From contig NZ_FOFV01000009.1 in NCBI RefSeq assembly GCF_900111005.1, positions 1-64,000 of the forward strand: 64,000 nucleotides of DNA. The letters run 5' to 3'. Position 1 is the first letter of the stretch; the number at the start of each line of letters is the position of its first letter. Shown piece after piece: positions 17,158 to 37,583 of this stretch. The notes under the pieces were generated by a model. It had not been told where the DNA came from. It saw nothing but the letters and a program-made list of their open reading frames with translations, and did no database searches. Source of the stretch: Lentzea albida (GTDB taxonomy: Bacteria > Actinomycetota > Actinomycetes > Mycobacteriales > Pseudonocardiaceae). A program made the position numbers and the translations under genes.

Positions 17158-17240
17158 TCTTGTGCTCGGAGCGTCCTGCCTGCCACCGTGAGAGCGGTAA
17201 CACACAGTGGGCGCGCAGATGCTCCGAGGAGTTGGTCCCC

Positions 17241-17930
17241 ATGTTCGGAACACGCGCCGCCGCCCTGATCGTCGCGCTGATCGGCGTCTTCACGCTCGCT
17301 CAGCCGGCGACGGCGGCGCCGTTCATCGTCACCGAAGCGCAGTTCAACCAGATGTTCCCGTCCCGCAACGGCTTCTACACCTACAGCGGCCTGAAGAACG
17401 CGATGAACTCGTTCGGTTCCTTCGCGAACCAGGGCAGCGACACGGTGAAGAAGCAGGAGCTCGCGGCGTTCCTCGCCAACGTCTCCCACGAGACCGGCGG
17501 ACTGGTGTACATCCGTGAGATCAACCAGAGCGGCGACTACTGCGACGAAAGCCAGTCCTACGGCTGTCCCGCGGGCACCAGGGCCTACTACGGCCGCGGC
17601 CCGATCCAGTTGTCGTGGAACTTCAACTACAAGGCCGCGGGCGACTACCTCGGCATCAACCTGCTGAGCAACCCGGACCAGGTGGCCACGAACGCGACGA
17701 CGTCGTGGAAGACGGCGATCTGGTACTGGATGACGCAGAGCGGCCCCGGCACGATGACGCCGCACAACGCGATGGTCAACTCGCGCGGCTTCGGCCAGAC
17801 GATCCGCAGCATCAACGGATCCCTCGAGTGCGACGGCAAGAATCCCGGCACGGTGCAGAGCCGCGTCTCGAAGTACCAGCAGTTCACCGGGATCATCAAG
17901 GTGGCACAGGGTTCGAACCTGTACTGCTGA
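17241..17930 (+). CDS. Secreted GH19 chitinase, catalytic domain only
   Basis: A 229-residue endochitinase that cleaves beta-1,4-N-acetylglucosamine chains by inversion outside the cell. ATG 17241 gives a signal peptide (AAALIVALIGVFTLAQPATAA) directly joined to the GH19 domain. The catalytic Glu pair lies in NVSHETGG and VYIREINQSGDY. Other hallmarks are YYGRGPIQLSWNFNYKAAG and the C-terminal RSINGSLECDGKNP. There is no carbohydrate-binding module, unlike the paralogue 100 bases downstream, with which it shares most of its sequence. The pair probably arose by duplication. A dre-like site precedes it. Confidence 0.95.
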   Translation: MFGTRAAALIVALIGVFTLAQPATAAPFIVTEAQFNQMFPSRNGFYTYSGLKNAMNSFGSFANQGSDTVKKQELAAFLANVSHETGGLVYIREINQSGDYCDESQSYGCPAGTRAYYGRGPIQLSWNFNYKAAGDYLGINLLSNPDQVATNATTSWKTAIWYWMTQSGPGTMTPHNAMVNSRGFGQTIRSINGSLECDGKNPGTVQSRVSKYQQFTGIIKVAQGSNLYC

Positions 17931-17939
17931 CGGAGCAGA

Positions 17940-17955
17940 ACAGGTCTAGACCCTT
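17940..17955. promoter_or_regulatory. DasR-like site 1 upstream of chitinase 2
   Basis: ACAGGTCTAGACCCTT matches the dre consensus ACTGGTCTAGACCACT at 13 of 16 positions, with the central GGTCTAGACC perfect. It is the upstream member of a tandem pair. Confidence 0.65.
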
Positions 17956-17956
17956 G

Positions 17957-17972
17957 ACTGGTCTGGACCACT
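17957..17972. promoter_or_regulatory. DasR-like site 2 upstream of chitinase 2
   Basis: ACTGGTCTGGACCACT matches the dre consensus at 15 of 16 positions. It is offset 17 bases from the first site, close to two helical turns, so two repressor dimers could bind side by side. The gene start is about 65 bases downstream, which suits promoter blocking. Confidence 0.75.
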
Positions 17973-18035
17973 GATGCCAATCTCAGCACTGTTCACATCC
18001 TTGATTCCTCGGATGCAACAAGACTCCAGGAGTGG

Positions 18036-19106
18036 GTGACCTTGCTGAAAAAACGCATCTTGGCGTCTCTCGCGGCGGGTGTGATGGCGGCTTCCCTCGC
18101 CGTCATCGCACCGACCGCGTCCTCGCAAGCTGAAGTGTCCGCGCAGGCCTGCACCTTCACGGACTGGGTTCAGGGACAGTGGTACACCGCCGGGTCGATC
18201 GTGAGATTCGAAGGCAACTACTACGTCGCTGAGCACGACAACCCGGGCTACAGCCCGACGGTCTCCACCTGGTACTGGGAACCGACGGGCTGCGACGGCG
18301 GTGGAGGTGGCGGCGGCGGCACCTGCACCAGCGCCACCGACTGGGTCGCGGGACGGCAGTACTACACCGGCAACATCGTGCGCTACAACGGTTCCTACTA
18401 CATCGCCGAGCACGACAACCCCGGTTACGACCCGACGATCTCGACGTGGTTCTGGGAGCCGCACAACTGCGGCGGTGGCGGCAACCCCGGCACCGGCTTC
18501 CCCATCAGCGAGTCGCAGTTCAACAGCTTGTTCTCCGGTCGCAACAGCTTCTACACCTACCAGGGCTTCGTCGACGCGGCACGCACCATCCCCGCGTTCG
18601 GCACGTCCGGCAGCGACACGGTGAAGAAGCAGGAAGTCGCGGCGTTCCTCGCGAACACCGCGCACGAGACCGGCAACTTCGTCTACATCGAAGAGATCAA
18701 CAAGAACAACGACCTCTGCGACGAGAGCCAGCCCTACGGCTGCCCGGCCGGGACCTACGCCTACTACGGCCGCGGCCCGATCCAGCTGTCGTGGAACTTC
18801 AACTACAAGGCCGCGGGCGACTACCTCGGCCTCAACCTGCTGCAGAACCCGTACCAGGTGGCGCAGAACTCCACGACCGCGTGGCGGACGGCGATCTGGT
18901 ACTGGATGACGCAGCGCGGCCCCGGCTCGATGACCGCGCACGACGCGATGGTCAACAGCGCCGGATTCGGCCAGACGATCCGCAGCATCAACGGTTCCCT
19001 GGAGTGCGACGGCCGCAACCCGGCGCAGGTCCAGAGCCGCGTGTCGAACTACCAGCGGATCACTGGAGTCATCGGTGTGACGCCGGGCGGAAACCTCTAC
19101 TGCTAG
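18036..19106 (+). CDS. Secreted GH19 chitinase with two CBM5/12 chitin-binding modules
   Basis: A 356-residue enzyme. The signal peptide (ILASLAAGVMAASLAVIA) is followed by two near-identical chitin-binding modules (QACTFTDWVQGQWYTAGSIV and CTSATDWVAGRQYYTGNIV, each ending in a W.WEP...C motif). Poly-Gly linkers join them to a GH19 domain with NTAHETGN and VYIEEINKNND carrying the two catalytic Glu residues. GTG 18036 is only three bases after AGGAG, while TTG 18042 is nine bases after it, so the true start may be the TTG. Its TAG stop lies inside the CTAG end of a palindromic element (19103-19269). Tandem DasR-like sites precede it. Confidence 0.95.
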   Translation: MTLLKKRILASLAAGVMAASLAVIAPTASSQAEVSAQACTFTDWVQGQWYTAGSIVRFEGNYYVAEHDNPGYSPTVSTWYWEPTGCDGGGGGGGGTCTSATDWVAGRQYYTGNIVRYNGSYYIAEHDNPGYDPTISTWFWEPHNCGGGGNPGTGFPISESQFNSLFSGRNSFYTYQGFVDAARTIPAFGTSGSDTVKKQEVAAFLANTAHETGNFVYIEEINKNNDLCDESQPYGCPAGTYAYYGRGPIQLSWNFNYKAAGDYLGLNLLQNPYQVAQNSTTAWRTAIWYWMTQRGPGSMTAHDAMVNSAGFGQTIRSINGSLECDGRNPAQVQSRVSNYQRITGVIGVTPGGNLYC

Positions 19107-19269
19107 TGGCGCGCCCCAGGAGGTCGGCGAGGTGATCCACGCTCAGCAGGGCGCCTCGCGGCACCGCCCCCACGCCCCCGTACCACCAGTACGAGGACGT
19201 GGGGGCGGCACCACGATCCACCCGTCTGACCGCGAATCCCCCCGGCAACCTCCTGCGCCACACCACTAG
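19103..19269. repeat. CTAG-bounded palindromic element, copy 1 (167 bp)
   Basis: The segment begins CTAGTGGCGCGCC and ends GCGCCACACCACTAG, and folds as one long imperfect hairpin whose apex is GTACCACCAGTAC. It is homologous to 22981-23145, in the opposite orientation. Inner stem CAGGAGGT/ACCTCCTG replaces CAGAACGT/ACGTTCTG of the other copy, so pairing is kept despite base changes. The first CTAG supplies the TAG stop of the chitinase gene. It may be a small non-autonomous mobile element with CTAG target duplication, or a bidirectional terminator, or both. Confidence 0.85.
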
Positions 19270-19306
19270 GACCCGAGCTGTCCTACTTCGGTCCTAGCTT
19301 CACCCC

Positions 19307-19789
19307 ATGACCGAAGAGCTCGAAGAACTGCTGCACGAACTGAACGACCAGCGCGGGACCTTCCGCATCACGATGCGGGGTCTCACCGCCGCCGACGCGG
19401 CGAAGCGCACCACGGTCAGCGAGCTCACCTTGGGCGGGTTGCTCAACCACCTCGTCCAAGGTGAGCGCGGCTGGACCCACATCATCACCGAGCAACCCCT
19501 GCCCCCGCCCGGAATGCTGGACCAGAGCCAGTACACCTGGGCGGGCAACGACTTCGAGGCGTTGCTCGCCGAATACGACGAGGCGGCGCGCGCGACCGAT
19601 CAGGCCGTGCGCACCGCCTCGTTGCACAAGCTCGTCCCGCTGCCCAGCGCTCCCTGGGATCCCGACCCGCGGCCCATGTCGGTCCGGCGGATCGTGCTGC
19701 ACCTGATGCGGGAGACCGCGCAGCACGCGGGTCACGCCGACATCATCCGGGAAGCGCTCGACGGTCAGTCGACGACGGCGCTGCTCTAG
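19307..19789 (+). CDS. DinB family protein (DUF664)
   Basis: A 160-residue four-helix protein. Family features are LNDQRGTFRITMRGLTAADA, LTLGGLLNHLVQGERGW with the first metal-binding His, and SVRRIVLHLMRETAQHAGHADIIRE with the second and third His. DinB-like proteins bind a divalent metal and many use low-molecular-weight thiols such as mycothiol or bacillithiol, but this member's substrate is unknown. The next gene, on the opposite strand, encodes a mycothiol-linked redoxin; the two share a CTAG at their stop codons (19786-19789). Confidence 0.85.
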   Translation: MTEELEELLHELNDQRGTFRITMRGLTAADAAKRTTVSELTLGGLLNHLVQGERGWTHIITEQPLPPPGMLDQSQYTWAGNDFEALLAEYDEAARATDQAVRTASLHKLVPLPSAPWDPDPRPMSVRRIVLHLMRETAQHAGHADIIREALDGQSTTALL

Positions 19790-20031
19790 GCCGCGAGCTG
19801 TTCCTTCACCTGCGCCAGCGACGGGTTGGTGAGCGCCGCGCCGTTCGGGAAGTGGACGGTCGGCACCGTGCGGTTGCCGCCGTTCACGCTCATCACGAAG
19901 TCGGCCGCACCCGGCGTCTCCTCGATGTTGATCTCGACGTACTCGATGCCTTCGCGGTCGAGCGAGCTCTTGAGGATGCGGCAGTAGCCGCACCACGAGG
20001 TCGAGTAGACGGTCAGCTGGTCGGGAGCCAT
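19786..20031 (-). CDS. Mycoredoxin (glutaredoxin-like)
   Basis: An 81-residue thioredoxin-fold protein with active site TSWCGYC (Cys14 and Cys17) and the mycoredoxin signature SVNGGNRTVPTVHFPNGAALTNPS. Mycoredoxins reduce protein-mycothiol mixed disulfides in actinobacteria, using mycothiol and mycothione reductase. ATG 20031 is chosen for its good ribosome-binding site (GAGGAG nine bases upstream) and the family length of about 80; a longer frame to 20127 is not credible. Confidence 0.92.
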   Translation of the reverse strand: MAPDQLTVYSTSWCGYCRILKSSLDREGIEYVEINIEETPGAADFVMSVNGGNRTVPTVHFPNGAALTNPSLAQVKEQLAA

Positions 20032-20326
20032 CAGGCGCACTCCTCGTCGGGGTCGGACGGTGTCACCCAGGTCAACGCCGTGCGCCGCCCGCTTCTTCCC
20101 GCGGCCCCGGACCCGATCGTCAGACAATCGTCAGGTCAATTCCTCCCACCGCGGGTGAGCATGGTTCGCGCACGTCCGAAGATTTCGGCCGTGCACTTGG
20201 TCGTGCATTCCCCATTTCACCACCTACTAATTCAGTCACCCAATCGGAGGCCCGCCACCACGCAGGGTTTCGGATATCGTCTGAAATCCGCCGCCGCTAC
20301 CGCAGTACTGATGAGAAAGGCTGGCC
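20032..20326. other. Intergenic region, no gene seen
   Basis: About 295 bases of lower GC, divergent upstream region for the mycoredoxin gene and leader for the first DUF4360 gene. The sequence GAGAAAGG just before ATG 20327 is a ribosome-binding site. I see no convincing operator, small gene or terminator. Confidence 0.5.
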
Positions 20327-20950
20327 ATGCTGAAAACAGTGGCGGCTGCTGCCCTCGCGCTGTCCGCGGTGCTCACCGCGCCGGCCGCCCACGCAGCGCC
20401 CGACGTACCCGACTTCGTGACGATCGACGTCGTCACCGTCAACGGTTCCGGTTGTCCCGCCGGCACCGCGGCGGTCGCGGCCGCGGACGACCGCACGGCG
20501 TTCACGGTGACCTACAGCCAGTACCTCGCGCAGGCCGGCCAGGGCTCGGCGCCCACCGACTTCCGCAAGAACTGCCAGCTCAACATCAGGGTGAGCTACC
20601 CGCAGGGCTTCACGTTCGGCATCGCCCAGGCCGACTACCGCGGGTTCGCGAACCTCCAGCAGGGTGCCACCGGCACCGAGAAGGGCAACTACTACTTCCA
20701 GGGCATGTCGCAGGGCGCGAGCCGCAGCCACACGTTCACCGGCCCGAAGAGCGACAACTGGCAGGCGACCGACCGCGCGCAGGTCGCGGAAATCGTCTAC
20801 GCGCCCTGCGGAGAAGTCCGTCACCTGAACATCAACACCGAACTCCGCGTGCACGCCGGAACCGCGTCGAAGGCGAACAGCTTCATGACGATGGATTCCA
20901 CCGACAGCAGCGTGAGCACGAAGTACCAGCTCTCCTGGAAGCGCTGCTGA
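20327..20950 (+). CDS. Secreted DUF4360 protein, copy 1
   Basis: A 207-residue exported protein. The signal is MLKTVAAAALALSAVLTAPA with cleavage near AHAAP. The mature domain shows the DUF4360 pattern: VTVNGSGCPAGTAAVA, DFRKNCQLNIRVSYP, ADYRGFANLQQG, NYYFQGM and INTELRV. The cysteines at GSGC, KNCQL, APCGE and the C-terminal KRC probably form disulfides. The family is beta-rich and widespread in actinobacteria and fungi, with no established function. A second copy follows after 62 bases, so they are very likely co-transcribed tandem duplicates. Confidence 0.88.
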   Translation: MLKTVAAAALALSAVLTAPAAHAAPDVPDFVTIDVVTVNGSGCPAGTAAVAAADDRTAFTVTYSQYLAQAGQGSAPTDFRKNCQLNIRVSYPQGFTFGIAQADYRGFANLQQGATGTEKGNYYFQGMSQGASRSHTFTGPKSDNWQATDRAQVAEIVYAPCGEVRHLNINTELRVHAGTASKANSFMTMDSTDSSVSTKYQLSWKRC

Positions 20951-21012
20951 CAAAGGCACCGATCACCGCCGCCCGTTCATTTCGTTGAACATCCCCGACG
21001 GAAAGGTGCCCC

Positions 21013-21657
21013 ATGCTGAACACACTGGCCGCGGCCGCGCTCGCGATGTCGACGATCGTCTTCCCGCCCGGCGGCGCCCCCGGCGACACCCCGCCGCCGG
21101 ACCACATCACCATCGACGTCGTGACGATCAACGGCTCCGGCTGCCGGGCGGGAACGGCCGCCGTCGCCGTCAGCCCGGACAACAAGGCGTTCACCGTCAC
21201 CTACAGCGAGTTCATGGCGCAGGTCGGCCCCCAGGCCCTGCCCACCGACTTCCGCAAGAACTGCCAGCTGAACCTGCGCGTCAACGTGCCGTCCGGCTTC
21301 ACCTACGGCATCTCCTCCACCGACTACCGCGGCTTCGCGCACCTGGAGCGCGGCGCCACCGCCCTGGAGAAGGCGAACTACTACTTCCAGGGCATGTCGC
21401 AGACGGAGTACAAGCAGCACAACTACAAGGGCCCGTTCAGCGACGACTGGCAGGCGACGGACACGACCGACGTGGCCGCCATCGTCTACCACCCGTGCGG
21501 CGAGAAGCGGAACTTCAACATCAACACGGAGCTGCGGGTCATGGCCGGCACGTCCGACAAGAAGCTCACGAGCTTCATCGCGATGGACTCGACGGACGGG
21601 TCCATCGAGACGACCTACCACTTCGCCTGGAAGACCTGTCCCCCTCCGAGGCCGTAG
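21013..21657 (+). CDS. Secreted DUF4360 protein, copy 2
   Basis: A 214-residue paralogue of the preceding gene with the same motifs (TINGSGCRAGTAAVAV, DFRKNCQLNLRVNVP, TDYRGFAHLERGATA, NYYFQGMSQTEY, FNINTELRVMAG). The hydrophobic signal is short and ends in a Pro/Gly-rich segment (FPPGGAPGDTPPPD), which could reflect a different processing site or a flexible spacer. Divergence between the copies is spread along the whole length, so the duplication is not recent. Function unknown. Confidence 0.87.
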   Translation: MLNTLAAAALAMSTIVFPPGGAPGDTPPPDHITIDVVTINGSGCRAGTAAVAVSPDNKAFTVTYSEFMAQVGPQALPTDFRKNCQLNLRVNVPSGFTYGISSTDYRGFAHLERGATALEKANYYFQGMSQTEYKQHNYKGPFSDDWQATDTTDVAAIVYHPCGEKRNFNINTELRVMAGTSDKKLTSFIAMDSTDGSIETTYHFAWKTCPPPRP

Positions 21658-21748
21658 TACCGCGCCAGGTGCCGGGCATCCCGCGAACGGGGTGCCCGGC
21701 ACGCCCCGTTCTGGGAAGATCGTCCCCTGCCGACCGTCTGGGGGGACG

Positions 21749-22984
21749 ATGAAGCTGCACGCGCTGTCCGGAGTGGACCTGGGACCGGCGTTCCACGCGG
21801 TGGTGGACGCGATAGCAGCGGTGGTGCCGGCACCGCGGTACCCGCACCTGCCGGTGTTCCTCGACGACCTGCCCGACTCGTCGGCACGGGTGGACCTGAT
21901 GCGGCTGGCCGTGCTCGTCGCGCTGGAACGGGTGGGCGGAACCGTCCACCCCGTGCCGGTCACGAACCCCTTCGGGTACCTGCCCGACCACGGCTGGCTG
22001 GTGTCCCGGGAGGAGTCGCCTCCCGCCCTCACCTTCCTCGACGACGAGACGATGCCCCGCGAGCGCACCGCAACCGTGGTCGGCGGCCCCGACGGAGCCG
22101 TCCGCATCACCGTCGGCGAGGCGCGGTTCGAGTTCGAGCCCCCGGCCGAAGAGGAATGCCGGCGACTGCTGGGCGCCGGGGCACGCGGGGCGGCGCTGAG
22201 CTTCCCCGTCTTCCCCGCCGCCGGACCGTCCCTGCTCGCACGCGGGAACGCGCCGGACGAGATCGTGCTGTGGCGGCTGGGCCTGCCTACCGCCTGGTTC
22301 CGGCTGCCCGGCCCGGTGCTGGCCGCCACCTACGTGTCCCAGTCACACCTGGACGCCCTGATCACGCTGGTCGAGGTCGACGGCGAGCTGCTCGTGCACG
22401 TCACCGGCGACGGCGACACCGGCCTGGTCAAGCTGCGCACCCCGATCGACTTCGAGGTGGCCGAGCACGACCTGTCCCCGCTCTACCTGCACTGCGTCGA
22501 GTCCTGGGACATCGGTGTCTACTTCCTCCGCGCCGGCGAGTGGTGGCACCTGCGTTGGTCACCCGGCCACGTGCTGCTCGAACCGTCGAACTCGAAGCTC
22601 CACCAGCCAGACACGTTCCCGTTCCACACCAAGCTCGACGGCGCCGGCATCGGACTGCGCGGGACGAGCATCAGCTACGCGTGGGACCGCGGCACGGCCT
22701 GGGAGGTGACGGGCACGGACTGGGAGGACACGCTCATCCCCGTTCCGCCCGAGGAGGAGGCGCTGCACCTGACGAAGGCCGGTGGCGGACCGGTGCTGCT
22801 CACCCGCGAAGGCTCCGTCGTCCGAGCCCGGACGCGGGACACCGTGCACACCGTCGTCGAGTTCGACGGCCCCGTGCTCCTGCACCACGGACTGCCGTGG
22901 GTGGCGGTGCAACGGTCACCGCACCTGGTCGAGATCATCGACGTCGCGACCGGCGCGGTGCTGCACCGCCTCGACACCGCCTAG
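21749..22984 (+). CDS. Conserved hypothetical protein, 411 residues
   Basis: A cytosolic protein with no signal or membrane segment. It is rich in Trp, Asp and Pro and has repeating beta-strand pairs (YAWDRGTAWEVTGTDWED, HHGLPWVAVQRSPHLVE, LVEIIDVATGAVLHRLD), suggesting a beta-propeller-like C-terminal half. I do not recognise the family. ATG 21749 follows a G-rich stretch. The stop TAG (22982-22984) is the left CTAG of the second palindromic element, so the last codon context depends on that insertion. Confidence 0.7.
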   Translation: MKLHALSGVDLGPAFHAVVDAIAAVVPAPRYPHLPVFLDDLPDSSARVDLMRLAVLVALERVGGTVHPVPVTNPFGYLPDHGWLVSREESPPALTFLDDETMPRERTATVVGGPDGAVRITVGEARFEFEPPAEEECRRLLGAGARGAALSFPVFPAAGPSLLARGNAPDEIVLWRLGLPTAWFRLPGPVLAATYVSQSHLDALITLVEVDGELLVHVTGDGDTGLVKLRTPIDFEVAEHDLSPLYLHCVESWDIGVYFLRAGEWWHLRWSPGHVLLEPSNSKLHQPDTFPFHTKLDGAGIGLRGTSISYAWDRGTAWEVTGTDWEDTLIPVPPEEEALHLTKAGGGPVLLTREGSVVRARTRDTVHTVVEFDGPVLLHHGLPWVAVQRSPHLVEIIDVATGAVLHRLDTA

Positions 22985-23145
22985 TGGTGTGGCTCAGAAC
23001 GTTGCCGGTGTATTCGTGGTCAGACGGGTGTGTCGGGGTGTCGCCCCCACGGCCTCGTACTGGTTGTACGGGGGCGTGGGGGCGGTGCCGCGACGGATCC
23101 TGCTGAGCGCGGATGCGCCGCCAACGTTCTGTGCCACGCCACTAG
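22981..23145. repeat. CTAG-bounded palindromic element, copy 2 (165 bp)
   Basis: The outer 24 bases (22981-23004) pair with the last 24 (23122-23145) at 22 Watson-Crick positions, with one G-T and one T-T. Inner arms CGCCCCCACG and CGTGGGGGCG pair perfectly around a GTACTGGTTGTAC apex. The left CTAG gives the stop of the plus-strand gene and the right CTAG gives the stop (on the minus strand) of ilvA. It is the inverted homologue of 19103-19269. The arrangement looks like insertion into a CTAG shared by two convergent stop codons, with CTAG duplicated. Confidence 0.88.
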
Positions 23146-24377
23146 ATCAGGAACCGGTACGCCGTGGACCCCGGCTCCACCGGCTGGATCCGCAGCGGTG
23201 ACTCCTTCATCCGCCCCCACAGCAGGTCGTAGTCCTCGCGCCGCCCCAGCTCGATGCACACCAGCGCGGCCCCGGTCTCCCGGTTGTCCCGCTTGACGTA
23301 CTCGAACCGCACGATGTCGTCGTCCTTGCCCAGCACGTCGTCGAGGAACCGCCGCAGCGCGCCGGGCTCCTGCGGGAACTCCACCAGGAACCAGTGCTTC
23401 AGGCCGCGGTGGACCATCGAGCGTTCGACGATCTCGGCGTAGCGGGACACGTCGTTGTTGCCACCGGACAACAAGCACACCACGGTCGAGTCGGGGGCGA
23501 CGGAGATCTCCTCCAGCAGCGCGGCCGAGGCCAGGGCGCCGGCGGGCTCCGCGATGATGCCGTCGATCTGGTACAGCTCCAGCATCTCCGTGCACACCGC
23601 GCCCTCGGCCACGGTCAGCAGCTCGGCCCCGGAGTCGCGAACGAGCGGGAACGTCACCTCGCCCGCGCGGCGCACGGCGGCGCCGTCGACGAACGAGTCC
23701 ACCTCGGGCAGGGTGACCGGGCCGCCCGCCTGGAGCGCGGCGATCATGCTGGCGGCGCCTGCGGGCTCCACGCCGATGATGCGGGTGCGCGGGAAGCGCT
23801 CCTTGAACCACGTGCCGACGCCGGAGAGCAGGCCGCCGCCGCCCACGGGCACGACGACCACGTCGGGGGCGCCGCCGAGCTGCTGGACGATCTCGAGGCC
23901 CACGGTGCCCTGGCCCGCGACCGTGCGGGCGTCGTCGAAGGCCGGGACGAGCGTGGCGCCCGTGGCCTCCGCGTACTCCTTCGCGAGGGCGGCCGCGTCG
24001 TCGTAGGTGTCGCCGTCGACGACCAGCTGGACCATGCCCTGGCCGAGCGCGGAGATGCGGTCGCGCTTCTGGCGCGGGGTGGTCCGCGGCACGTGCACGC
24101 GGCCCTCGATGCCCAGGCGGCGGCACGCGTAGGCGACGCCCTGGCCGTGGTTGCCCGCCGACGCGCAGACGGCGCCGCCGAACGCGAACTCGGTCTGGCA
24201 GAGCAGGTTGAACGCGCCCCGCAGCTTGTAGGAGCGGCCGACCTGGAGGTCCTCGCGCTTGAACCACACGCGGGCGCCGGTCCGTTCGGACAGCCGCTGG
24301 TTCACCTCGAGCGGCGTGGTGCGTGCGACTCCGCCGAGCCGGGCTGCGGCGGCGGACACCTCATCAGCGAAGGACAT
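23142..24377 (-). CDS. ilvA: Threonine ammonia-lyase (threonine dehydratase)
   Basis: A 411-residue PLP enzyme converting threonine to 2-oxobutanoate, the first step of isoleucine synthesis. The PLP lysine is K51 in GRSYKLRGAF. The serine/threonine-binding loop is CASAGNHGQGVAYA and the Gly-rich phosphate loop is VPVGGGGLLSG. The C-terminal about 80 residues (KHWFLVEFPQEPGALRRFLDDVLG) form a single ACT-like domain, as in the short actinobacterial enzyme; isoleucine feedback is likely through it. It is not in an operon with other branched-chain genes. Its stop codon is the right CTAG of the palindromic element. Confidence 0.95.
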   Translation of the reverse strand: MSFADEVSAAAARLGGVARTTPLEVNQRLSERTGARVWFKREDLQVGRSYKLRGAFNLLCQTEFAFGGAVCASAGNHGQGVAYACRRLGIEGRVHVPRTTPRQKRDRISALGQGMVQLVVDGDTYDDAAALAKEYAEATGATLVPAFDDARTVAGQGTVGLEIVQQLGGAPDVVVVPVGGGGLLSGVGTWFKERFPRTRIIGVEPAGAASMIAALQAGGPVTLPEVDSFVDGAAVRRAGEVTFPLVRDSGAELLTVAEGAVCTEMLELYQIDGIIAEPAGALASAALLEEISVAPDSTVVCLLSGGNNDVSRYAEIVERSMVHRGLKHWFLVEFPQEPGALRRFLDDVLGKDDDIVRFEYVKRDNRETGAALVCIELGRREDYDLLWGRMKESPLRIQPVEPGSTAYRFLI

Positions 24378-24444
24378 GTCAGTACATCTTCCGTGAACGA
24401 CTCGGGTCTGGCACGCGTACCCCTAGAAGGAAGGGGGCGGTGCC

Positions 24445-25299
24445 GTGTTCCGTCTGCTGGGCGTGCTGACGCTGCTCATGGTGCTGTCCGCGGGTCACGC
24501 GCACGCCCACGGAGCGCCCACCGACCCCGCGAGCAGGGCTTTCCTCTGCTCGCCAGGTCAACCCACAGCATCATCCTCGCCCTGCCGCAGCGCCATCGCG
24601 GCGGGGTTGCCGTCCAAGGAGTGGGACAACATCCGGCTGGCGAACGTGCGCGGCCAGGACGCGGCCAGGGTCCCGGACGGCAGGCTGTGCAGCGCGGGGC
24701 TCCCGGCGTACGCCGGGCTGGACCTGCCGTCGGCCGCCTGGCCGGTGACGAAGCTCAAGGGCACCGCCTTCACCTACAGGGCCACGATCCCGCACCAGGG
24801 CTCGTTCCGGTTCTACGTGACGCGGGACGGCTACACGCCGGACAGGCCGTTGCGGTGGGCGGACCTGGACCAGTTCCTGAACGTGCCGTCGCCCCCGCTC
24901 GTCAACGGCTCCTACGAGTTCAAGGTGCAGCTGCCGCAGAACCGGACCGGGCGCCACCTGATCTACACGGTCTGGCAGAACACGGACACGCCCGACACCT
25001 ACTACTCGTGCACCGACGTGGAGATCGCGGCGGCCGTGAAGCCGGCACCGCAGGCCCAGCCCGCACCCGTCGCCGCCCCGCCGGTGAAGACGGTGCCACC
25101 GACCGCACTCCCGGCCACGACGCCCTCCACCAAGCCGTCCGCGCCGAAGTCGAGCGTTCCCCGGCCGGTTCCCGTTGCGTCGAGTGCCGAACAACCTCCT
25201 TCCGACGCGACGAGGTTCGGCATGGCGGCCGTGGTCGCGGCCCTGGGCGGTCTCGCCGTGCTCGGCGGGTTCCTGTTGTGGCGCAGAAGAATTCTGTGA
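24445..25299 (+). CDS. AA10 lytic polysaccharide monooxygenase, membrane anchored
   Basis: A 284-residue copper enzyme that oxidatively cleaves crystalline chitin or cellulose. The signal peptide ends AHA with the mature N-terminus at His22 (HGAPTDPASRAF), the first ligand of the copper histidine brace. The second is His117 in ATIPHQGSF. The axial aromatic lies in DTYYSCTDVEI. The catalytic domain is followed by a Pro/Ala/Lys-rich wall-spanning linker and a C-terminal membrane helix with a basic tail (GGFLLWRRRIL), so the enzyme is probably held at the cell surface. There is no sortase motif. GTG 24445 follows AAGGAAGGGGG. Confidence 0.92.
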   Translation: MFRLLGVLTLLMVLSAGHAHAHGAPTDPASRAFLCSPGQPTASSSPCRSAIAAGLPSKEWDNIRLANVRGQDAARVPDGRLCSAGLPAYAGLDLPSAAWPVTKLKGTAFTYRATIPHQGSFRFYVTRDGYTPDRPLRWADLDQFLNVPSPPLVNGSYEFKVQLPQNRTGRHLIYTVWQNTDTPDTYYSCTDVEIAAAVKPAPQAQPAPVAAPPVKTVPPTALPATTPSTKPSAPKSSVPRPVPVASSAEQPPSDATRFGMAAVVAALGGLAVLGGFLLWRRRIL

Positions 25300-37316: not shown

Positions 37317-37405
37317 CGCTAGGGGTCTCCAAAACGGGGTGGAAGAAGTCTCCCCAGGTTAGCAACGCGGGCCAGCCGAAATGCCGGGCCCCGGATGATC
37401 GGCCC

Positions 37406-37570
37406 AGAGCCTGTCTGCCCGGTCCCGTCCCCGAGAGGTGCGCCTGAGGTGGCTCCTGGCGGTGCGGGCGGCCGACCCGCATACCGGTGTTGTATTCGGG
37501 TCGGCCGCCCGTGCCCCCAGGAGCCACCTCAGGCCCGGGTCTCGCGGGCGGGACTGGGCAGACAGGCTCT
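37406..37570. repeat. 165-bp near-perfect palindrome between gltX and the TsaC-type gene
   Basis: AGAGCCTGTCTGCCC (37406-37420) pairs exactly with 37556-37570. The interior continues as a stem: GGTCCCGTCCCCGAGA with CTCGCGGGCGGGACT, then CCTGAGGTGGCTCCTGG with its exact complement, then GGGCGGCCGACCCG with CGGGTCGGCCGCCC. The apex is around GTGTTGT. The terminal repeat resembles those of actinobacterial IS5-type elements, so a MITE is a good guess. It sits in the divergent promoter region. Confidence 0.85.
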
Positions 37571-37583
37571 AGGCTCACACGCC

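Follow-up and report, generated by a model that had tools for sequence, protein, structure and literature searches.

A mobile CTAG-bounded palindrome of Lentzea and Actinokineospora that often lies at stop codons and tolerates wobble pairs on one strand

Two inverted hairpin elements at gene ends

The window, i.e., the whole stretch of 64,000 nucleotides analysed here (positions 1 to 64,000 of contig NZ_FOFV01000009.1 of Lentzea albida), contains two homologous elements of opposite orientation, each with CTAG at both ends (Table 1). One of them follows a chitinase gene and the other separates the convergent ilvA gene from that of a hypothetical protein, which has no Pfam match at E 0.001. The coordinates, homology and inverted arrangement given for the two elements by an earlier, sequence-only reading are correct, the copies being 87% complementary over 108 nt. 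Its proposal that each copy forms one long hairpin also holds, as the plus strand reaches -138.3 kcal/mol in copy 2 (z = -16.5) and -93.7 kcal/mol in copy 1 (z = -6.5), with 0 of 200 shuffles being as good in either case. The minus strand is much more stable than the plus strand in copy 1 (-144.9) and much less stable in copy 2 (-96.3), so that the stronger-folding strands, minus in copy 1 and plus in copy 2, agree once the copies are oriented by homology. The inner stems as first described, CAGAACGT/ACGTTCTG and CAGGAGGT/ACCTCCTG, were confirmed with their changes on both sides, and covariation was found along the stem. An Rfam scan of window positions 18000-24500 returned only two miRNA matches, far under the gathering score, and no curated family. 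Two tandem duplications are found in the same part of the window, namely a chitinase-like gene pair at 17160-19106 (300 nt, 85%) and paralogues of ~210 aa at 20327-21657 (163 nt, 80%).

Table 1. Coordinates of the elements and their neighbours in the window
Feature	Position	Strand	Remarks
GH19 chitinase (PF00182), left of copy 1	18036..19106	+	
Element copy 1 (167 bp)	19103..19269	-	Strand given is that of the conserved hairpin; one sister genome (L106) has the site empty
Left CTAG of copy 1	19103..19106		TAG is the stop codon of the GH19 chitinase
Right CTAG of copy 1	19266..19269		No called gene stops here; the following one begins at 19307
Hypothetical protein, left of copy 2	21692..22984	+	430 aa from GTG at 21692, 411 aa from 21749
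Element copy 2 (165 bp)	22981..23145	+	Strand given is that of the conserved RNA-like hairpin; empty site in four sister genomes
Left CTAG of copy 2	22981..22984		TAG is the stop codon of the hypothetical protein (411/430 aa)
Right CTAG of copy 2	23142..23145		TAG of the minus strand is the ilvA stop codon
Threonine dehydratase ilvA (PF00291 + PF00585), right of copy 2 and convergent	23142..24377	-	
Near-perfect palindrome of 169 bp, CCAG...CTAG	37404..37572	+	Arm AGCCTGTCTGCCC; size and layout as in the element

Copy number, forms and host range

The genome of Lentzea albida (9.44 Mb in 40 contigs) holds 18 near full-length copies by BLAST, together with partial ones. Among 40 genomes searched in the same way, matches are present in all 24 of Lentzea (its own included) and in 0 of the 16 that represent other genera of this order, the weakest match within the genus being that of genome G010 (E = 2.4e-6 only). 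A GTDB scan with an exact 23-base end pattern gave 86 stretches, all of them from Lentzea or Actinokineospora, while plasmids and phages showed no element match by BLAST and viral contigs none with the exact pattern.

For the comparison of copies, 172 extracted candidates were reduced to 158 by requiring one or more CTAGs and no more than six end mismatches, and to 150 distinct elements after the removal of overlapping pairings. Their lengths cluster tightly, with 120 elements at 158-172 bp, 13 at 100-130, 12 under 100 and 5 at other values; in the short forms the middle is missing and the hairpin still forms. An element of 165 bp has at most 55 codons, too few for a transposase gene. Both ends are CTAG in 114 of the 150 elements, a share inflated by the 86 loci that were obtained with a CTAG-starting pattern. 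Those deviating at one end (n = 36) have CCAG (12), TTAG (8), CTGG (3), CTAA (0) or other tetramers (13), i.e., the outer side has changed more than expected if a doubled CTAG had simply decayed. The deviant bases are balanced between the two sides (4 and 4 for the pair 1-167, 8 and 7 for 2-166). Regarding shared insertions, five real pairs of loci are alike in both flanks and seven clusters are overlapping pairings only; these pairs give no rate, the sample consisting of element-bearing loci only.

Empty sites and the doubling of CTAG

All 24 genomes of the genus have an ilvA match, and the left neighbour is kept in nine of the loci examined. The element occupies two of these nine, in Lentzea albida and in genome G011, whose copy (83% identical, with a different arm type) is likely, judging from these differences, to stem from an independent insertion. 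Four of them (L082, L084, L085 and L087) read GCCTAGATCAGG, in which a single CTAG is the stop of both convergent genes, and the other three (L086, L088 and L100) have no CTAG. At the chitinase site the right flank was matched in 18 genomes, and six loci, that of the window being one, were inspected: L106 is empty and has one CTAG, and the 3' end of the chitinase gene in L108, L109 and L111 carries the 20-bp CTAGTGGTTCGCCTCACTAG, of which L110 has a diverged form. To judge by its sequence, CTAGTGGTTCGCCTCACTAG may be the remaining foot of a copy that was deleted long ago.

Given that the empty sites have one CTAG with the stops in place, insertion doubles the CTAG and the stop codons are older than the insertion. 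The sequence-only reading, which had suggested a small mobile element with CTAG as its target and had proposed looking for empty sites in sister strains, is supported by the many copies and by the empty CTAG sites found in sister species at both window loci, and none of the three observations that it had named as refuting was made. It was also right in placing gene ends at 19106, 22984 and 23142, but not in regarding the element as the supplier of the stop codons, as these TAGs predate it. The empty sites do not tell a true duplication of CTAG from a unit that brings its own CTAG beside a resident one.

Insertion contexts

Gene calls were made with a simple codon-usage caller trained on the window, by which 119 of the 150 copies could be placed and 31 could not. 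The placed copies lie between convergent (55), tandem (58) or divergent (6) genes, compared with 136 convergent, 511 tandem and 163 divergent background junctions in the loci examined (p = 1.4e-11 for the convergent excess). Furthermore, the TAG stop of a neighbour falls within an element CTAG in 92 of the 119 copies, against 48 of the 120 CTAGs that lie outside coding sequence (p = 5e-9), and in 27 of the 55 convergent copies both stops do so. At tandem sites the conserved strand is sense to the neighbours in 30 cases and antisense in 28, that is, at random. The count of copies inside genes was zero, a figure given no weight here because a gene hit by the element would no longer be called intact.

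The tetranucleotide is scarce in these genomes: 464 kb, made up of the window and evenly spaced sequence of genome G002 (L274-L293), contain 147 CTAGs where 1269 are expected, about 8.6-fold fewer than base composition predicts. Of these 147, a few of which are element ends, 48 coincide with stops, 10 of these being double, while 27 fall within genes and 72 elsewhere. CTAG being so often at stops, its availability accounts for part of the stop preference, but not for all of it, and the remainder may reflect selection against harmful insertions.

Covariation of the stem and subfamilies

In 22 diverse copies, 26 of the 61 pairs are changed on both sides and 95.6% of the cells are paired; 0 of 500 shuffles scored as high, and slid versions of the alignment gave 2-9 such pairs. 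Pairing is kept across copies, so that the stem-breaking differences named as a test in the earlier reading are not what is seen. The terminal inverted repeats take part in this, columns 3-24 pairing with 148-169 in 94.6% of the cells. The ends of the element read TGGYGYGNCNCAGAANGTYG or TGCCGCGGCAGTCGGCC, the latter belonging to a second subfamily in which the ends are quite different and the length, the CTAG and the central hairpin are unchanged. With both end types taken together, 32 of the 61 pairs are changed on both sides (11-15 in slid versions). Copies from Actinokineospora pair less well by this structure, with 58% Watson-Crick, 18% G.U, 4% A.C and 21% other combinations.

Asymmetry between the strands

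The orientation of the copies was set by aligning them to copy 2 and not by their stability, and 6 of 126 rows scored near-equal both ways. In the strand so oriented, G.U-type combinations make up 14% of the pair cells and A.C-type ones 1.3%, a ratio near 11 that falls to 1.9 to 3.7 when the partners are slid by 1-6 columns; likewise, the RNA folding energy is -140.8 for the sense and -101.8 for the antisense strand and lower for the sense strand in 118 of 120 rows, although these last counts and the 14% and 1.3% include two rows that are not element-like, which were dropped from the substitution counts. Without them, the sense strand is the better folded one in every copy from Lentzea (83 of 83) and from Actinokineospora (35 of 35), and also in 9 of 9 members of the second subfamily (L059 having been oriented by the model instead of by BLAST). 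DNA parameters favour the sense strand too (-73.0 vs -55.5 in Lentzea), so that energy cannot separate RNA from single-stranded DNA.

The same asymmetry appears in the substitutions, counted by parsimony with the same result under first, last and random tie-breaking. About 147 transitions from Watson-Crick pairs form a wobble, against about 39 that form A.C, and among unambiguous terminal changes the figures are 81 and 26 (p = 9e-8). This bias is found in tandem copies lying antisense to their neighbours (25 wobble-forming vs 2 A.C-forming), in same-sense tandem (11 vs 4) and convergent copies (18 vs 6) and in those of unknown context (19 vs 5), and is absent from two small classes, divergent (3 vs 3) and unassigned (5 vs 6). 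Expressed per 1000, G>A (1.8) and T>C (5.8) are rare at Watson-Crick pairs, where A>G reaches 19.2, and are common at wobble pairs (25 and 35, respectively), where they restore pairing. Where columns are unpaired, A>G and T>C are equally frequent (15.2 and 15.5 per 1000) but C>T (14) is above G>A (2), from which it follows that plain deamination is not the whole cause, even though it could contribute; a mutational strand bias may thus exist to some extent.

Several of these counts support a single-stranded stage of one strand. Due to the random orientation at tandem sites, we infer that the selected form is the element's own and not that of host transcription, and the wobble-tolerant pattern suggests that the life cycle of the element itself includes a folded single strand, perhaps of RNA. 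Host termination alone is insufficient to account for the asymmetry.

Search for the mobilizing enzyme

Several IS701-family elements of Lentzea, as well as one in A. enzanensis, are flanked by CTAG on both sides, other copies of the family having variant flanks (e.g., L118 and L131). Their inverted repeats CTTGAGTTTTAACC, TAGTGCTTTGTTAGGTG and TACTACAGCCGCAGG differ from the ends of the element. In four places (L011, L078, L112 and L115), the end of an IS701-family copy exactly abuts the outer CTAG of an element. Profiles of DDE transposases were searched for in the genome of Lentzea albida (PF01609, PF13546 and PF13340) and in the 24 genomes of the genus and two of Actinokineospora (PF13546); the subsequent inverted-repeat scan covered 32 of the 47 PF13546 matches in the genus and six of the seven Actinokineospora loci (all except L300). 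Neither the IS701 loci scanned nor the 86 pattern loci yielded an autonomous element whose ends match, and the A. enzanensis genome, when scanned with the end pattern, gave no autonomous partner. Two long end-to-end spans (L174 and L216) were discarded as autonomous elements, containing ordinary genes, with a separate short copy in L174; a third one (L204) has an end with 4 mismatches. A tyrosine transposase was also rejected as the mover, PF01797 (Y1_Tnp) being present in only 4 of 13 genomes and absent from the element's own (G000) and from both Actinokineospora genomes tested (G040 and G041). The best guess for the mover is an enzyme of the IS701 type, on the basis of the shared four-base target. 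The contig of the window itself starts within an IS701 copy (L079), so the assembly probably broke at this repeat.

Relation to known elements

The element has the short dispersed copies, the terminal inverted repeats and, by comparison with empty sites, the doubled target (CTAG) of a miniature inverted-repeat transposable element (MITE). According to the excerpts considered of a review on MITEs such as QMITE2, RUP and BOX (PMC10969869), these are short, lack a transposase, have terminal inverted repeats and direct end repeats, and are mostly intergenic, all of which is shared with the element; they are also predicted to give stable folded transcripts, again like the element, and are described as possible terminators. 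What distinguishes the element from them is the fixed CTAG target, the contact with stop codons, the GC-richness, and a hairpin that covaries over its whole length with one strand favoured.

The nearest precedent, which makes the element less novel, is that of the GTAG-REPs and REPtrons. In the part of the source drawn on here (PMC3733652), these are palindromic, their termini often give TAG stops, they occupy mostly convergent or unidirectional sites, and the G-T pairs in their stems are taken to suggest a function as RNA; the element is alike in all these features. However, GTAG-REPs have 20-40 bp, a tag at one end and a link to tyrosine transposases (PMC3733652), whereas the element is ~165 bp long and bounded by CTAG on either side, its empty sites show one CTAG, and its own genome is without a Y1 transposase. 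IS701 elements, for their part, share the four-base target, here CTAG, and the host genera, but encode a transposase and have different inverted repeats. One excerpted source puts their duplication at precisely four bp for nearly all members (PMC2266710) and another at 4-9 bp for two from Geobacillus (PMC8024623). A derivation from this family agrees with the 4-bp duplication found but not with the inverted repeats, none of which were shared in the loci scanned. Among the matches listed from the open-licence literature, this repeat was not found for Lentzea or Actinokineospora. New here is the strand asymmetry of the element, with G.U tolerated and A.C rare.

A proposed life cycle and its rivals

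That the element is mobile, doubles CTAG and comes to lie at stop codons is well supported, and it probably represents, taking all the observations jointly, a protein-less transposable element that inserts at CTAG and passes, as one of its strands, through a folded single-stranded form. In this proposal, a short non-autonomous element of Lentzea and Actinokineospora would be inserted at CTAG, with doubling of the tetramer, by a transposase acting in trans, most likely a DDE enzyme of the IS701 type. CTAGs at stop codons, above all at overlapping convergent ends, would be landing places harmless to both genes, since the tetramer is rare within coding sequence yet holds TAG on both strands, so that each flank keeps its stop after the doubling. 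The element would be a clear example of how a target sequence can render insertion at gene ends nearly harmless. One strand, folded and single-stranded, probably as RNA, would be required for the spread of the element, and pairing that is strand-specific and independent of orientation does call for this small bacterial transposable element to be single-stranded at some stage. In addition, the inserted element might terminate transcription, a role that is possible.

An alternative, in line with the terminator role that the sequence-only reading had considered, is that the host keeps the element as a bidirectional terminator, with the hairpin being selected at each locus to end the flanking transcripts. 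The enrichment at convergent genes in contact with stop codons and the strong hairpin on either strand would fit, as would, by eye, an unrelated classical hairpin in genome G004 (L100) between the 3' ends of the same gene pair. Nevertheless, the element is missing from the ilvA site in 22 of 24 genomes, the four bare-CTAG sites leave no space for a hairpin between both stops, and both the random tandem orientation and the wobble bias, strongest in the antisense-lying copies, speak for something other than host transcripts, for which reasons we consider this unlikely. A little below it we place transposition as single-stranded DNA (HUH/IS200-IS605- or RAYT-like), in which the conserved strand would be the substrate, inserted beside CTAG with no true duplication. 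The strand-specific hairpin, the DNA energies favouring sense and the link of GTAG-type REPs, with their TAG-stop termini and G-T stem pairs, to tyrosine transposases (excerpted in PMC3733652) speak in its favour; against it are the distribution of PF01797 described above and the equality of the deviant end bases on both sides. As for the replicating strand, 14 long matches counted by hand in genome G002 are co-directional in 4 cases and head-on in 10 if the origin is at base 1, as assumed, the GC skew of this genome having revealed no origin.

Least probable among the rivals is, in our opinion, an explanation with no selection on a single strand, where sense-biased deamination (C>T and A>G) would act together with hairpin-templated repair of the palindrome. 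Both changes yield G.T at Watson-Crick pairs, and the excess of C>T over G>A in unpaired columns is as expected from it; yet A>G and T>C are equal where unpaired and differ at Watson-Crick pairs, and a strand bias fixed to the element in any orientation would itself require a single-stranded state specific to the element. Returning to the transposable element with a single-stranded stage, a bolder version, which we hold to be doubtful though less so than any of the rivals, has it spread via a folded copy of one of its strands, made of RNA (or single-stranded DNA), by analogy with the logic of SINEs, as a protein-less mobile RNA hairpin inserted at CTAG and thereby lodged in the stop codons of convergent genes. 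If this were true, the swapping of ends between subfamilies, with length, CTAG and pairing kept, would mean that the machinery reads the structure and not the end sequence.

A third palindrome in the window

A further palindrome (last row of Table 1) scores 68.7 bits (E = 2.9e-11) with the covariance model of the element, a model in which any long hairpin scores. It folds about equally on both strands (-159.6 and -156.1), the genes flanking it are divergent, and its arm has no exact 13-base match in the 300 loci examined. It is possibly a distant subfamily of the element.
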